Source: Myxococcota bacterium
Lineage (GTDB): Bacteria > Myxococcota > XYA12-FULL-58-9 > JALHOP01
Reading direction: 5' to 3'
Assembly: GCA_022842935.1 (NCBI GenBank)
Contig: JALHOP010000006.1
Coordinates: forward strand, 124,001-188,000
Length of the DNA: 64,000 nucleotides
Shown: positions 8,925 to 16,823 of the stretch, piece after piece
Layout of the letters: the number at the start of each line of letters is the position of its first letter
Position numbering within the stretch: the first letter of the stretch is position 1
Made by a program: the position numbers and the translations under genes
The notes under the pieces: generated by a model
Told to the model about the DNA's origin: nothing
What the model saw: the letters and a program-made list of their open reading frames with translations, nothing else
Database searches by the model: none

Positions 8925-11900
8925 ATGGGCGCGTCCACCATCCTCGTTCTCGACGACGGGCATCACTCGCTCGAGACGCTGACCAGCGCGCTCGAAGACG
9001 CTGGCTATGCACCCGTTGCGGTCGCCGAGGGCGACGACCCGCTTGGCCAATTCGAAGCGCTCACCCCCGAGCTCGTCTTCTTGAGCCTCAAGGCGCGGAG
9101 CGCCCTCGAGGTCTGTGAGGCCATTCGCCTGACGGGCCACGGCGCCATCGTACCCATCATCTTCGTGGGCAATGGCCATGCGAAGGTCCGCTCCCCATCC
9201 GAAGCCCTCTCCTATGGTGGCGACTATCACTTCGGCGAACCTCTCGAGCTCGGAAAGATCCTCGCCAAGGTCCAGACCTACGTCGGAGCGCCTCCGGCAC
9301 CGCGGGAGGAGATCACCCGCGTTGATATCGCGCCGGTCGTCGACCTGGCGCGGCTCGCAGGCGGAGGGGCCACCGTCGAGCTACGTTCTGAATCCGCTTC
9401 CGACCTCGCGAGCGCCTCGGACGACCTCCTCGCCCAGATCGAGGCCGAAAGCCGCGCCGAATCGGAACGGCGAGCGCGTGAGGAGGCCAAGCGCCGCGCT
9501 GAGGACGAGGCCGAGCGGTTTCTCGCCGAGGAGGCCCAGCGTCAAGCCGACGAGGAGCTTGCGCGGCTGACCGCCGAGGCGGACGAGCGCCGCGCCGAGT
9601 CCCAGCGTCAGGACGAGGCGCGCAAGGTAGCGGCGGAAGAGATGCGCATGCGCGCCGAGGTGGCCGCGGCCGAGAGACGGCGCAGCGAAGAAGAATCCCG
9701 ACAACGCGCGCTCGAAGAAGCCGAGCGGTGGGCGGAGGAAGCGCGTCGCGAGGCCGAAGAAGAGACGCGTCGCCGCGCGCAGGCCGAAGAGCGCGCGCTT
9801 CGCGAGGCCGAAGAACGTGCGCGTCGTGAGGCCGAAGAGCAGGCGCGTCGTGAGGCAGAAGAGCAGGCGCGTCGTGAGGCCGAAGAGCAGGCGCGTCGTG
9901 AGGCCGAAGAGCAGGCGCGTCGTGAGGCCGAAGAGCAGGCGCGTCGTGAGGCCGAAGAGCAGGCGCGTCGTGAGGCCGAAGAGCAGGCGCGCCGTGAGGC
10001 CGAAGAGCAGGCGCGTCGTGAGGCCGAAGAGCAGGCGCGTCGCGAGGCCGAAGAGCAGGCGCGTCGCGAGGCCGAAGAGCAGGCGCGTCGTGAGGCAGAA
10101 GAGCAGGCGCGTCGCGAGGCCGAAGAGCAGGCGCGTCGCGAAGCCGAAGAACGTGCGCGTCGTGAGGCAGAGGATCAGGCGCGTCGTGAGGCCGAAGAAC
10201 GTGCGCTTCGCGAGGCCGAAGAACAGGCGCGTCGCGAAGCTGAAGAACAGGCGCGTCGCGAAGCTGAAGAACAGGCGCGTCGCGAAGCTGCCGCGTTGAA
10301 AGCGCGTCTCGACCTCGAGGCCCGGATACGTCGCGAAGCCGAAGAGCAGGTACGTCGCGAAGCCGAAGAACGTGCGCGTCGTGAGGCCGAAGAGCAGGCG
10401 CGTCGCGAAGCCGAAGAGCAGGCACGTCGCGAGGCCGAAGAGCAGGCACGTCGCGAGGCCGAAGAGCAGGCGCGTCGCGAAGCCGAAGAGCAGGCGCGTC
10501 GTGAGGCCGAAGAGCAGGCGCGTCGCGAGGCCGAAGAACGTGTTCGGCGTGAGGAAGAACGTCGCCGTGCCGAGCAGGAAGAAGCGCAACGGCGGGCGGA
10601 AGAAGAGCGACTCCGCATCGAGGCGGAGAGCCGCCGCAAGGCCGAGGAAGAGCAGCGACGTCGTGCCGAGGAAGCGCGGCGCCGAGCGGAAGAAGAAAGT
10701 CGTCGTCTCGAGGCTGAGGCCGAAGCGCTCCGGCTGGCTGAAGAAGAGATCCGCCAGCGTCGCCTCGACGATGAACGCCGTAAGGCCGAAGAAGAAGCGC
10801 GGCGCCGCGCCGAAGAAGAGCGCCAGCGCGTCGAAGCCGAAGCCGAAGCCAAGCGGCTCGCGGAAGCCGAGTCCCAGCGGCTCGCCGAAGCCGCTCGGCG
10901 TAGGCTTGAAGAAGCGCTCGAGCGCGCCGAGGCGGAGCGCCGCGTCGCAGAGCAAGCCGCAGAGGAGCAGCGCCGCCGGTCGGAAGAGGCCGCGCGTCGC
11001 AAGTTCGCCCCCGCGAAGCCCTCTGCGAGCGAATCGAAGCCTGGCGCCGACACGACGCGCGTTGAGCGTTCAACCGAAATCGTCCGGGGGGAGTCCGGGT
11101 TGACGATAGCAGCCACGCTAACTCCGTTGTCGGGTAGCAAGAGCGCTGAGTTGCAGCCTCCGTCCGCTATCGAAGACATGAGCGACCAGGAGTTTCGTCG
11201 GCCCGTGCCGCGAGCCTCGGTCAACATACCAACGCCGACGGCGCAGTCCCTCGTGCAGAATCAACCAGGGACACCGATGCGCGCCAGACCACAGTTGCGC
11301 GCATTCACGCCTGAAGAAGGTGTCTTCAGCAACAGCGCCGACATGGCCGACCTCTTGGCCGAGGCGTTTCGTCAGCAAATCACCGGTCGCATCGACTTCA
11401 CGTCGGGCACGCGCCAGAAGTCCGTCGTCTTCGAACGCGGACATCCCGTCGACGCATACTCTAGCCAGGTCTATGATCGCATGGAGGAGTACCTGCTCCG
11501 CGAAGGGCGCGTCACCAAAGCCCAATACCACGAGGTACGCGTCAAAGGCCTGCGCGGCCCGCGGCGTATTGGCGCCTTCTTGGTGAACGAGGGCTATCTG
11601 CGTCCCGACGAGCTGTTCACCGCGGTGCGAGGTCAACTCGAAGAGCTCATCTTCTCACTGTTCGAGTGGGACGAAGGTAGCTACGCGTACGTCGCCGAGC
11701 ACGTTGACGACGACGATCGCGTCACCCTCGAACGTGACCCGCGAGCAATCGTGACTGAAGGGATTCGCCGCAAGTACCTCTTACCGCGAGCGGTGCAGAA
11801 GCTTGGCAGCCCAAGCTCGCTCTTGACGCGCACTGACCCCGAAGGCCGTATCGACTCCGACGCGCTCGGCCTCACACCAGACGAGCGCCAGATCGCTCGG

Positions 11901-12341
11901 CTCGTCGACGGCACCCGCAACATCGATGACATCGTCTTTTCGAGCGGACTCGGTGCGCTGCGTGTCTACCATGTGCTTGCCGCGCTCTGCGCCACGGGCT
12001 ACGCGGAGGTCGCAGTCCGTGGAATCGAAGGCATCAACCTGAGCGGTGCGACCGATCTCGATGGTATCGATCGTCAGCGCATTCTCGAACGGGTCGAGCA
12101 AGTTCGGCAGGCAGACTACTTCCAGATTCTCGGTGTCTCGCGCGGCGCTACCACCTACGAGGTCGAAGCCGCTTTCGAGCGCATCACCCGCGAGCTTGCT
12201 CCGCCGCGTCTTTCGCCTGCTGTGCGTGCTTCACTCAAGAATGAGATCGACGAGATCGAGCGGGTCCTCGAAGACGCCCGTGATGTGCTTCGCGATCAAC
12301 GCATGCGCGAAGCATACGCACGCAATCTTCCGCGCCTTTAG
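8925..12341 (+). CDS. Pseudo-receiver / tandem-repeat helix / DUF4388 (PATAN) / J-like multidomain protein
   Basis: The product is 1138 residues. Residues ~5-118 have a response-regulator receiver fold (ILVLDDGHH retains acidic residues), but the phospho-acceptor Asp is Ser (ELVFLSLKAR), and the conserved Thr and Lys positions are also lost (IIFVGNG; FGEP). Residues ~165-700 are an uninterrupted Glu/Ala/Arg-rich helix including 30 octapeptide units. Residues ~795-930 form a DUF4388-type domain (TGRIDFTSG...VFERGHPVDAYS; RRIGAFLVNEGYL). The C-terminus (from ~1063) resembles a J-domain (DYFQILGVSRGATTYEVEAAF) without the HPD motif. The layout recalls the Myxococcus pseudo-receiver/coiled-coil proteins AglZ and FrzS, so a scaffold in polarity, motility or signalling is an inference. 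Confidence 0.75.
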   Translation: MGASTILVLDDGHHSLETLTSALEDAGYAPVAVAEGDDPLGQFEALTPELVFLSLKARSALEVCEAIRLTGHGAIVPIIFVGNGHAKVRSPSEALSYGGDYHFGEPLELGKILAKVQTYVGAPPAPREEITRVDIAPVVDLARLAGGGATVELRSESASDLASASDDLLAQIEAESRAESERRAREEAKRRAEDEAERFLAEEAQRQADEELARLTAEADERRAESQRQDEARKVAAEEMRMRAEVAAAERRRSEEESRQRALEEAERWAEEARREAEEETRRRAQAEERALREAEERARREAEEQARREAEEQARREAEEQARREAEEQARREAEEQARREAEEQARREAEEQARREAEEQARREAEEQARREAEEQARREAEEQARREAEEQARREAEEQARREAEERARREAEDQARREAEERALREAEEQARREAEEQARREAEEQARREAAALKARLDLEARIRREAEEQVRREAEERARREAEEQARREAEEQARREAEEQARREAEEQARREAEEQARREAEEQARREAEERVRREEERRRAEQEEAQRRAEEERLRIEAESRRKAEEEQRRRAEEARRRAEEESRRLEAEAEALRLAEEEIRQRRLDDERRKAEEEARRRAEEERQRVEAEAEAKRLAEAESQRLAEAARRRLEEALERAEAERRVAEQAAEEQRRRSEEAARRKFAPAKPSASESKPGADTTRVERSTEIVRGESGLTIAATLTPLSGSKSAELQPPSAIEDMSDQEFRRPVPRASVNIPTPTAQSLVQNQPGTPMRARPQLRAFTPEEGVFSNSADMADLLAEAFRQQITGRIDFTSGTRQKSVVFERGHPVDAYSSQVYDRMEEYLLREGRVTKAQYHEVRVKGLRGPRRIGAFLVNEGYLRPDELFTAVRGQLEELIFSLFEWDEGSYAYVAEHVDDDDRVTLERDPRAIVTEGIRRKYLLPRAVQKLGSPSSLLTRTDPEGRIDSDALGLTPDERQIARLVDGTRNIDDIVFSSGLGALRVYHVLAALCATGYAEVAVRGIEGINLSGATDLDGIDRQRILERVEQVRQADYFQILGVSRGATTYEVEAAFERITRELAPPRLSPAVRASLKNEIDEIERVLEDARDVLRDQRMREAYARNLPRL
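9786..10556 (+). repeat. 24-bp coding tandem repeat (octapeptide EEQARREA and variants)
   Basis: The first block (9786-10289) has 21 consecutive 24-bp units, of which 13 in a row (9834-10145) encode exactly EEQARREA. A 51-bp non-repeat spacer (LKARLDLEARI region) follows. A second block (10341-10556) has 9 units. Units differ mainly by synonymous changes (cgt/cgc, gag/gaa, gcc/gca) and Gln/Arg swaps. The protein pattern is that of a single alpha helix or coiled coil with alternating acid and base. The DNA identity between units suggests expansion by slippage or unequal recombination. Confidence 0.95.
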
Positions 12342-13435: not shown

Positions 13436-15088
13436 ATGAATCTACGTGCGGCGGTCGCGCCGGTGGCGTTTCTCCTCGCTTTTTCAGGGCTTTCGGCTGC
13501 CCGGGGAGCCGGGACTTTTGCTTTCGATGGCTTGCCGACCGTGTCGGAGGGCCAACACATCGAGGCGATTCTGCTCCTCGACGACCTCCGCGAGCTTCGC
13601 GGCAAGCTCGAGTTGCAGAGAGCTTTGATCGCTCGCACGACCTTCGGGCGCGAGTATGTCAAAGCAGAGCATCAGCGCGCTTTGCTGGGCGTCGACCTGT
13701 ACGGCGAGATCGACCGCCTGCTCGCACTCGCCGCGCCCAAGGGTGGCAAGGTTCCCGTCGTCGGCGCGGTCGTCTCCGAGGGTGAAGGCACGATGCACGC
13801 GCAGCTCGCCATCAAGGTCGAGGATGGCGCGCTCGAGCGCTTGGCCAAAGCCCCCAGCGAGAGCGCGATTGCGTTTACGAACGACAACGGCGCGCTCAAG
13901 GTCACCATGCGTGGCATCACGTTGCCCGCCAAAGTGGACGGTGGCTGGTTGCGCATCGGTGCCACCGATGCGTCTCTCGCTCTGACCGGTAGCAAGGCCC
14001 TGACCGCTTTGCCGGACGGGGTGGCCCGTTGGGCGAAAGACTCGCAGCTGGTCCTGGCGGCGCTCGGCGGTGGCATGATCAGCAGTGGTCTCGCCAAGGC
14101 CTTCGCCGACAACCCAATGGCTCAAAACATGGTGAACGAAGCCAAAGCGTTGGCGGTGACCATGCGCATCGATTCCGACCTATCGCAGGTCGCGCGCATC
14201 GTCCTCGACTCCGAAGCGGTCAGGCAGATGGCGCCGATGGTTAAAGCTCAGGGTCGGCCCGCCAGCGCTGCGGCTCACTGGGACTCCGAAGCGCTCACCG
14301 CCGTATCGATCGCTGTGCCGCCAATGCTGCTCACCGGCGCCTTGACGCTCGCGCAGATGGAGGTGCCCGAGATCGCGGACCCCTCGGTTCAAGAAGTCAT
14401 CAAGGCTGCCCAGGCCGTCAATGGCCGCTTGAGTCTCGCCACGTTTGGCGCCCCGGGGGACTGGGCGATGGCCGCCGACTTCATCGATGCGCAGTCAGCG
14501 CAGGCGTTCGTCGACAGCAGCGCAAAAGCGCTGAAGGCGCTGCTCGATCGCTATGGCGTCGAGCCGGGTCTCATGCGGCTCGAGGGCAAGCAGGGCGCGC
14601 AGCTCGTGAAGCTGCGCCCCGACGTGACGTTGACCGACAGCACGGTCGTAGCTCTCGACAACAGCGTGGTGGCGGCCCGTCAGCGCGTGCGCGTCGAGCG
14701 TCTGACCGACCTGCGCACGGCAAAGAAGGGCAAGTCGTTGCTCGACGGCCCGTTGACTCCAGCTGTTCGCGAGGTGCTGGAACGACCCGGCATCCTTCAG
14801 GCCTATATGGTCACGGGCTACGACGGGACGACGCTCGAATGGTTCTACTGGCCAGCCAAGATTGCCGAGGTGGCGCTCAAGCAGATGCGTGACATTCTGC
14901 CCAAGGACGCACTCGACCCCAATCTCTATGGGGCAGCGTTCGCGAGTCCCGCTTCCATGACCGTCAGTCGTTTGCCGCTGACGCTCGCGGTTGGTGGCTT
15001 CGGGCTTGCCTCCGTCTACGACTACGCCGTCGCTCTCGACGTCGACGATAACGCACTGGTTCTCCAATTTGCGGGGTCGCAGCTATGA
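13436..15088 (+). CDS. Secreted protein of unknown function
   Basis: The product is 550 residues with a Sec signal peptide (LRAAVAPVAFLLAFSGLSAARGAG). The mature part is Ala/Leu/Val-rich with alternating helix and strand and no motif I recognise (EAILLLDDLRELRGKLELQ; KLRPDVTLTDSTVVALDNS). It resembles the large, poorly characterised periplasmic proteins common in myxobacterial genomes. Its stop overlaps the next ATG by 4 nt (ATGA), so it is translationally coupled to the pilin-like lipoprotein gene, and the two products may work together at the envelope. Confidence 0.7.
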   Translation: MNLRAAVAPVAFLLAFSGLSAARGAGTFAFDGLPTVSEGQHIEAILLLDDLRELRGKLELQRALIARTTFGREYVKAEHQRALLGVDLYGEIDRLLALAAPKGGKVPVVGAVVSEGEGTMHAQLAIKVEDGALERLAKAPSESAIAFTNDNGALKVTMRGITLPAKVDGGWLRIGATDASLALTGSKALTALPDGVARWAKDSQLVLAALGGGMISSGLAKAFADNPMAQNMVNEAKALAVTMRIDSDLSQVARIVLDSEAVRQMAPMVKAQGRPASAAAHWDSEALTAVSIAVPPMLLTGALTLAQMEVPEIADPSVQEVIKAAQAVNGRLSLATFGAPGDWAMAADFIDAQSAQAFVDSSAKALKALLDRYGVEPGLMRLEGKQGAQLVKLRPDVTLTDSTVVALDNSVVAARQRVRVERLTDLRTAKKGKSLLDGPLTPAVREVLERPGILQAYMVTGYDGTTLEWFYWPAKIAEVALKQMRDILPKDALDPNLYGAAFASPASMTVSRLPLTLAVGGFGLASVYDYAVALDVDDNALVLQFAGSQL

Positions 15089-15765
15089 AACGCCTGAGCA
15101 CCATCGTCCTCACCGTCCTCGTCGCTGCCTGCGGTAGCAAAAAATCTGGCACTGTCGCGGCTCCCCCGCGCGCGGCCGAGAGCGAGCAATACTACAAAGC
15201 GCTCGATGCCCGCTATAACGGTGACAGCCGCGCCTACTACGACGGGCTTCTCGAGCTCGCGCACGATGATCCGGACAGTCGAGCTGGTCGTAAGGCGCGT
15301 GCGATCCTGCAGGCTGACGATGGCCTCCTGATGTTGGCCGCTGTCGGTTCGCTGGCTGGTGCCGCCGTCCCGAGCTTCACGCGCTATCAGAACAAGGCGA
15401 AGGAGGCCGAAGCTCGCGTCATGCTTCAGTCGATCTACACGGCGCAGAGCGCGTTCTTCGCCGAGAAGAAGCGCTACTGCCGCACCTTCAAGGAATGCGG
15501 CTACGAGGGGCAACCCGATCAGAAATACATCCTGTTCATGTCGCCGAAGGAGATGTCTGTCGCACCGGGTGGTGACGAGTTCATGCTTACCGTCGTGGCC
15601 GCCGAAGCCCGCGAGGCCCTGGTCGCCGCCAACGTCAAGCCCCGCGTCGAACGGAAGAAGTTTCTGGTCGCTGCCGTCGCGAACCTCGACGGCGACGAGG
15701 TCATGGATGTTTGGACCATCGACGAAGCTGGCAACCTCGTTCACGTCGTGAGCGACCTCGAGTGA
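15085..15765 (+). CDS. Lipoprotein with type IV pilin-like domain
   Basis: The product is 226 residues. It starts with a lipoprotein signal peptide (KRLSTIVLTVLVAAC, lipidated Cys16), then a short helical region. A hydrophobic helix (residues ~81-96) leads into VPSFTRYQNKAKEAEARVML and YTAQSAFFAEKKRY, which closely resemble the alpha1 helix of deltaproteobacterial PilA-type pilins. The end (NLDGDEVMDVWTIDEAGNL) matches the C-terminal strand of such pilins. The prepilin peptidase motif is absent: no GFTLIE-like sequence and no Glu5. The domain is therefore probably delivered by the lipoprotein pathway instead of the pilus assembly route. Coupled by ATGA overlap to the upstream gene. Confidence 0.8.
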   Translation: MKRLSTIVLTVLVAACGSKKSGTVAAPPRAAESEQYYKALDARYNGDSRAYYDGLLELAHDDPDSRAGRKARAILQADDGLLMLAAVGSLAGAAVPSFTRYQNKAKEAEARVMLQSIYTAQSAFFAEKKRYCRTFKECGYEGQPDQKYILFMSPKEMSVAPGGDEFMLTVVAAEAREALVAANVKPRVERKKFLVAAVANLDGDEVMDVWTIDEAGNLVHVVSDLE

Positions 15766-15770
15766 CATCG

Positions 15771-16823
15771 ATGGCTGGGGAGGCGCGAAACCGGCTCCCC
15801 AACGGCGTTCGCGTCGCGCTTCGTTTCACGTTGAAGGCGCTTCTCACGGTCGGCGCGTTTTATCTCCTGCTCACCCACAAGGTCGATGCTGGAGATGGTA
15901 CGCGCGTCACGATCGCCGCGGCGGTGCGCGATCATCTACGTGAGCTCGATCCCGTGCGCTTCTGGCCTCTGATCGCGATTGCTGCCTCCGTCAAAGCGGT
16001 GGGGGTCTTCGCCTCGATGGTGCGCTGGCAGCTCTTGTTGGTTGGGCAGGGCATTCGCTTCAACTTCATGCACACGGTGGGGACCTTCCTCATCGGTCGC
16101 TTCCTGGGGACCTTCTTGCCGTCCACCATCGGTCTCGATGGCTACAAGCTTTATGATGCGGCTAAACACAGTGGCCGTGCCGTGCCTGCCGCCGCCGCGA
16201 CCGCGGTCGAGAAAGTGATGGGGCTCGCAGGCATCTTCCTCACTTTTCTCATCACGGTTCCCTTCGGCTACGGGGTTCTCGGTGACCACGCCGGTCTGGT
16301 CGTAGCAGTGACGGTACCGCTCGCCGCAGGCGTAGTCGTGGTGGCGTTTGCGCTGCTTTTCAAACCCACTTGGGCTCCGCGTCTCGCGAAGCTCGCGTTT
16401 TTCGGTAACGCCAAGATCACTGGTTTCATCGAAAAGCTGACGACGTCCGCCATGGCCTACAAGGGGAAAGCCCGATTGTTGGCGGCTGTTGCCGGCCTCT
16501 CGTTCGTGGTGCATTTCACGACTGCGGCGCTCTACTTCTTCACTGCGCTTGCCATCGGTGCCGAAGGTGCGAGCTTTGGTGCCGTCAGCTTCGCCTCGAG
16601 CATACAGATCGTCGCCACGGTTCTGACGCCTTTCACGATCGCCGGCGAAGGCGTGCGCGAGATCGTGCAAGCCTTGCTGCTCGCCAAACATATCGGTGCC
16701 ACGCAGTCGGTGCTTTCAGCCGCGCTGGGCTTCTGGGCGGCGGAGGCTTTGACGCTCTCTGGTGCCTTCTTTTGGTGGGCGCGTCGCGGTGATTATCGAC
16801 CGAAATCGGTGCAGTTGAGCTAG
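15771..16823 (+). CDS. Flippase-like integral membrane protein (UPF0104 / LPG synthase TM region family)
   Basis: The product is 350 residues starting at ATG 15771 (MAGEARNRLPN), 5 bp after the upstream stop. There are about eight predicted membrane segments (LLTVGAFYLLLTH; FWPLIAIAASVKAVGVFASMV; VAVTVPLAAGVVVVAFALLF; GLSFVVHFTTAALYFFTALAIG). Family-typical features are RWQLLLVGQGI, FLIGRFLGTFLPSTIGLDGYKLYD and TPFTIAGEGVRE. Members of this family lie near lipid or polysaccharide genes and some transfer lysine to phosphatidylglycerol, but this one lacks the soluble synthase domain. Probably a lipid-linked substrate transporter; the substrate is unknown. Confidence 0.85.
   Translation: MAGEARNRLPNGVRVALRFTLKALLTVGAFYLLLTHKVDAGDGTRVTIAAAVRDHLRELDPVRFWPLIAIAASVKAVGVFASMVRWQLLLVGQGIRFNFMHTVGTFLIGRFLGTFLPSTIGLDGYKLYDAAKHSGRAVPAAAATAVEKVMGLAGIFLTFLITVPFGYGVLGDHAGLVVAVTVPLAAGVVVVAFALLFKPTWAPRLAKLAFFGNAKITGFIEKLTTSAMAYKGKARLLAAVAGLSFVVHFTTAALYFFTALAIGAEGASFGAVSFASSIQIVATVLTPFTIAGEGVREIVQALLLAKHIGATQSVLSAALGFWAAEALTLSGAFFWWARRGDYRPKSVQLS

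Follow-up and report, generated by a model that had tools for sequence, protein, structure and literature searches.

A predicted lipoprotein with a PilA-like head in a Myxococcota bacterium, and related lipoprotein-borne heads across the phylum

Type IV pilins are defined by a signal peptide of their own, unlike the SPI and SPII of other exported proteins, and a recent review describes the SPIII signal as an invariable feature of pilins (PMC10191384). A pilin fold that traveled by the lipoprotein pathway would break this rule. The window analyzed here, a stretch of 64,000 nucleotides from an uncultured Myxococcota bacterium, contains a reading frame that raises the question directly: does it encode a pilin fold on a lipoprotein and, if so, does that fold still serve a pilus?

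The 226-residue lipoprotein

The reading frame has a gene-like distribution of GC over the three codon positions (0.67/0.43/0.78), and we assign to it the following features.

15085..15765, + strand: lipoprotein with a TPR-like hairpin and a PilA-like head; ATG start, 226 aa
15085..15132, + strand: predicted lipoprotein signal peptide MKRLSTIVLTVLVAA (first 15 residues) and lipobox Cys16, with Gly at +2 and Gly at +7 (pattern and shuffle test)
15169..15267, + strand: TPR-like helical hairpin, residues 29-61 (model helices 29-44 and 48-61), the best-conserved region among the orthologs
15280..15468, + strand: 63-residue helix 66-128, corresponding to pilin alpha1 with an N-terminal extension (AlphaFold2 model)
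15322..15378, + strand: alpha1N remnant GLLMLAAVGSLAGAAVPSF (residues 80-98), a weakened hydrophobic segment (dG +1.65), with D79, in the register of Glu5, just N-terminal to it
15478..15498, + strand: Cys132-Cys138 pair, kept in two orthologs (genomes G006 and G007)
15529..15762, + strand: pilin head, its end DGDEVMDVWTIDEAGNL..., with strands 149-151, 193-199, 208-213, and 218-222 and an inserted helix, 165-181

The signal peptide ends in the lipobox LVAA|C16. When the first 40 residues were shuffled 20,000 times, a PROSITE-type lipoprotein pattern including K/R close to the start arose in 160 cases (0.8%), and the lipobox is present in the window copy and in all three orthologs (G005, G006, and G007). 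An earlier note on this DNA, made from the sequence alone, had claimed the lipobox and proposed a search for homologs sharing it; the claim holds, and the search yielded these three orthologs as well as eight long relatives elsewhere. The PilA-type alpha1 that the note described is also present: residues 81-148 form an ungapped alignment with M. xanthus PilA (8tj2) over its mature residues 7-74 (phmmer, E 2e-11). The NCBIfam model typeIV_PilA_Myxo matches residues 81-153 with E 8e-14, under the model's 400-bit cut-off, and the Pfam family PF14245 (Pilin_PilA) scores 19.9 bits (E 9e-4) in the window copy, which misses the curated cut-off of 28.5 bits, and 43.1 bits in the G006 ortholog, which exceeds it. 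The C-terminal strands of the window copy give no phmmer match to PilA; they were nevertheless recovered, as claimed, both by the predicted structure and by profile alignment with relatives.

The prepilin-peptidase site G|F..E is missing from the window copy, as had been noted, with I74-L75 occupying its register, and no SPIII or G|[FM]...E motif occurs in frame in this copy or in its orthologs. We therefore give almost no credence to the possibility that the start was mis-called and that this is an ordinary pilin cut by prepilin peptidase: PilA homology is all that speaks for this reading, which the sequence largely contradicts, and the coupled ATG start yields the lipobox common to all orthologs. 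Glu5 was likewise said to be lost, and a Glu is indeed absent from its register, although the position is not always uncharged (D79 in the window copy, Ser in G006, Asp in G007).

The AlphaFold2 model, built on a 20-sequence alignment, has a pLDDT of 84 and shows a pilin beta-sheet together with a long alpha1 helix, giving the lollipop fold of type IV pilins (helix 66-128 and four strands in an antiparallel sheet). Comparison of a model with PilA had been suggested, with loss of the long helix or of the sheet counting against a pilin fold; both are there, and the M. xanthus type IV pilus ranks first among the PDB matches (E 2.5e-5, prob 1.00, with a TM-score of only 0.38-0.41), ahead of gonococcal pilin; TM-scores for the pilin matches are modest overall (0.32-0.43). 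The lipobox and the predicted structure together bear out a pilin fold on a protein of the lipoprotein route. The hairpin profile also matches a TPR lipoprotein of this genome, in its first repeat only (E 6e-4), which we regard as a lead only.

The alpha1 sequence, the lollipop fold, and C-terminal strands with D.W.I are held in common with PilA (PF14245; NCBIfam NF041775; 8tj2). Unlike PilA, the window protein lacks SPIII, the PilD site, and Glu5, its alpha1N is weakened, and an SPII signal and a TPR-like hairpin stand in front of it.

A coupled gene for a 550-residue exported protein

The lipoprotein gene is preceded on the same strand by a gene whose stop codon overlaps its start.

13436..15088, + strand: gene for a 550-aa exported protein, translationally coupled partner, with a signal-peptide-like N-terminus and no Cys; adjoins the lipoprotein gene in G005, G006, and G007
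15085..15088, + strand: ATGA stop/start overlap from the 550-aa gene to the lipoprotein gene (sequence)

In the orthologous pairs, the two genes are separated by 4 (G005), 5 (G007), and 11 (G006) bases. Among 195 Myxococcota genomes searched, the 550-aa gene lies directly upstream in all four that carry either gene, and the pair was not found in the rest. These four genomes belong to one order, whose other four genomes have neither gene; in G007 a contig boundary splits the 550-aa gene, and the other half is found on another contig. A scan of contigs returned only the two orthologs already known, from Deltaproteobacteria bacterium RIFOXYA12_FULL_58_15 and Myxococcota bacterium RA.bin128. The earlier suggestion of the coupled gene as a candidate partner is strengthened by these results, and it is because the adjacency is conserved that we consider the 550-aa protein a probable binding partner of the lipoprotein.

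The 550-aa protein matches no Pfam family. Its model is of low confidence (pLDDT 61), and the only non-random fold match, to the Treponema lipoprotein TP0453, fills the top six entries (best E 5e-3, prob 0.98), at about 10% identity and a TM-score of 0.40 at best. Given so poor a model, the fold of this protein and its contact with the head are guesses. An assignment to DUF3352 (PF11832) was rejected for want of a profile match, the only weak match in the genome lying elsewhere (C3:407926), and weak matches that the 550-aa protein gave in G045 and G117 were discarded, because the genes at these places are AnmK-like and encode no relative.

The lipoproteins of G006 and G007 are kept over their whole length at about 40% identity. 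The G005 ortholog (L039 5981-6343) has the lipobox, the hairpin, and the hydrophobic helix and no pilin head; its gene stops after the hydrophobic helix, with a convergent gene opposite, and the 550-aa gene is still upstream. At alpha1N the window copy has diverged more than any other (GSLAGAAVPSF, against GILAAIAIPNF in relatives), as might be expected if recombination had left behind a decaying chimera without a function of its own. We judge this quite improbable: full-length conservation with a retained partner in two other genomes, gene-like codon bias, and a confident fold all argue against it.

The gene downstream of the pair (window 15762-16823) encodes a membrane protein of the lysylphosphatidylglycerol-synthase/flippase type, and the genes downstream of the pair in G006 and G007 look unlike it. 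Farther upstream, a 1138-aa reading frame (8925-12341) with response-regulator, DUF4388, and DnaJ-like domains includes a 24-bp tandem repeat (9741-10537, about 33 copies) that codes for ARREAEEQ.

Pilin-like heads elsewhere in the Myxococcota

Profile searches identified eight long lipoproteins of about 500 aa (in G146, G166, G188, G119, G079, G171, G078, and G192), each with an N-domain of about 370 residues and a C-terminal PilA-like head without a prepilin site. A lipobox is found in all seven with an intact N-terminus, six by the strict pattern and G078 as LVPAC; the N-terminus of the G188 protein is lost at a contig end. The same N-domain occurs as a headless lipoprotein in G133 and G134 (L107 4740-6176 and L108 4976-6337). 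The long lipoproteins resemble the window protein in their lipobox, weakened alpha1N, and C-terminal PilA-like head; they differ in their N-domain, in having no hairpin, in the separate origin of their heads, and in not lying beside a 550-aa gene. We also considered that they might be fusions of the 550-aa protein with the short lipoprotein, and dropped this, as the profiles of the 550-aa family and of the long N-domain showed no sequence homology when compared. Two genes with the MG2 and A2M domains of alpha-2-macroglobulin come after the long lipoprotein gene in G166, and the first downstream gene in G146 is similar (L044 3543-10601 and L043 7149-14301).

In many other Myxococcota proteins, a PilA-like head is attached to an ordinary transmembrane helix and is often preceded by a zinc ribbon or a DUF4190-like segment. 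One is encoded in the window's own genome (L002 1195-2286; C1:771280), a non-pilin with a zinc ribbon, a transmembrane segment, and a long KAASDKAA repeat tail. Like the window protein, these membrane-anchored proteins have a PilA-type head without a prepilin-peptidase site; they differ in a stronger transmembrane helix and the lack of a lipobox, and their recognizable zinc ribbons suggest a cytoplasmic N-terminus.

A tree of 32 heads, whose exact branching is uncertain owing to the short alignment (134 columns), puts the short lipoproteins, seven of the long ones, and the long one of G079 in three separate places. The G079 head pairs with the membrane-anchored head of G154 (support 95/87). 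The AU test rejects one common origin for all lipoprotein-borne heads (p 0.0007) and likewise for the long class taken by itself (p 0.009); it does not reject a single clade for the short class. The lipoprotein-borne heads appear to represent at least three independent joinings, a single origin being hard to maintain, and in the G079 lipoprotein (L054 6741-8357) the head was apparently replaced by that of a membrane-anchored non-pilin family.

We found no description of pilin-like or pilin-fold lipoproteins in the open-access literature, and passages of a myxobacterial pilus survey (PMC6060248) make no mention of such proteins.

Strength of alpha1N and the proposed role of the head

In real pilins, the first half of alpha1 is both the transmembrane anchor and the core of the filament. 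In the window copy this segment has a predicted insertion dG of +1.65, compared with -2.48 for PilA of the same genome, and thus lacks the strong anchor typical of pilins. The 11 lipoprotein-borne copies range from +0.63 to +2.36, all below membrane-insertion strength, and 10 PilAs lie at about -2.5; we rely on the relative order of the values, which is safer than the values themselves. The 28 membrane-anchored non-pilin copies range from -3.87 to +0.15 (8 copies from -3.10 to +0.15, and 20 further copies from -0.70 to -3.87), so that the lipoprotein-borne and membrane-anchored ranges are completely separated, with zero overlap, although related sequences are not independent trials and the tree allows about three independent contrasts for this split. 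Kyte-Doolittle maxima in the first set divide in the same way (1.53-2.07 for lipoprotein-borne copies, 2.18 and above for the others).

As the N-terminus of a lipoprotein is outside, a strong alpha1N would put the head in the cytoplasm, and a weak one fits the topology. The hydrophobic stretch that is left, about 18 residues, could in principle act as a real transmembrane stop, with the lipid end periplasmic and the head cytoplasmic; we consider this very improbable, given that dG is positive in 11 of 11 copies and fully apart from that of the 28 membrane-anchored ones, and that a Cys pair is conserved in the head. Cys132-Cys138 is likely a disulfide, which would make the head extracytoplasmic, and the retention of such pairs argues for an oxidizing compartment and a periplasmic head.

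In M. xanthus, Lys at +2 directs lipoproteins to the inner membrane and Ala at +7 to the matrix (PMC3222651). By these rules the window protein, with Gly at both positions and neither Lys+2 nor Ala+7, is predicted to reside in the outer membrane. It would be exported by Sec, lipidated at Cys16, and transferred to the periplasmic face of the outer membrane, where the lipid anchor would be followed by the TPR-like hairpin, running into the long helix equivalent to pilin alpha1. Shortening and weakening of the first half of alpha1 would prevent a stop in the inner membrane and leave the head in the periplasm, the remaining hydrophobic face of alpha1N being probably buried against the membrane or the 550-aa protein. 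The head could then act as the binding module of a two-protein complex with the 550-aa protein, in a role other than that of a pilus. On balance we favor this reading, in which a lipoprotein with a non-polymerizing PilA-type head, a lipid anchor taking the place of the membrane anchor, probably works as a module with the 550-aa protein and is no pilus subunit.

The earlier note had instead suggested capping, docking, or competing with pili. As a pilus accessory, the protein would mimic a pilin while tethered to the outer membrane, and would dock or cap pili or compete with them at the PilQ secretin, or hold on to fibers that have been retracted. Its PilA-like alpha1 and head agree with such a role, as does its hairpin: a TPR lipoprotein encoded in the genome, of the protein type of the pilotins Tgl and PilW, has a similar first repeat. 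The genome also has three tandem canonical pilA genes (L048 8686-14936; C9) and, a few kb from these, a gene for a prepilin peptidase; tip pilins may be without Glu5 (PMC10191384). Retention of a PilA-like alpha1N motif in relatives (GILAAIAIPNF) could mean that contact with the pilus is still selected, which counts against our non-pilus model. However, no type IV pilus genes were found among the neighbors examined, and lipoprotein-borne heads occur in just 11 copies in 195 genomes, compared with near-universal PilA-type matches in the phylum. The head is also dispensable, being missing in G005, where the rest of the pair persists, and in the N-domain-only proteins of G133 and G134; and the joining of heads has happened more than once, with a non-pilin membrane family as the apparent source in one case. 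A function at the pilus therefore seems unlikely to us, and the earlier suggestion is not supported.

The preferred reading, of a head that works with the 550-aa protein away from the pilus, might exemplify a wider route. With about even confidence, we propose that in the Myxococcota the PilA head has repeatedly separated from the pilus to become a lipid-anchored binding domain, the lipoprotein anchor replacing the transmembrane half of alpha1 and the helix being weakened so that the inner membrane does not trap the head. This would be a general, convergent path from filament subunit to outer-membrane module. A pilin fold borne by a lipoprotein shows that the fold is detachable from filament building. 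If confirmed, such proteins would offer a natural pilin head free of the membrane helix for structural work and a defined two-gene system for testing what pilin-like heads bind, and would mean that counts of PilA in Myxococcota genomes include non-pilins.

Two known systems bear a partial likeness to the window protein. In the type V pili of Bacteroidota, the pilus proteins are exported as lipoproteins, with a different fold and as polymerizing subunits. The TPR pilotins of the Tgl/PilW/PilF type share with the window protein a lipobox followed by a TPR-like hairpin, but have several TPRs, where the window protein has one hairpin, and no pilin head. The window's own genome encodes a Tgl/PilW-type TPR lipoprotein whose first repeat resembles the hairpin of the window protein (L115 6870-7640; C1:506869).
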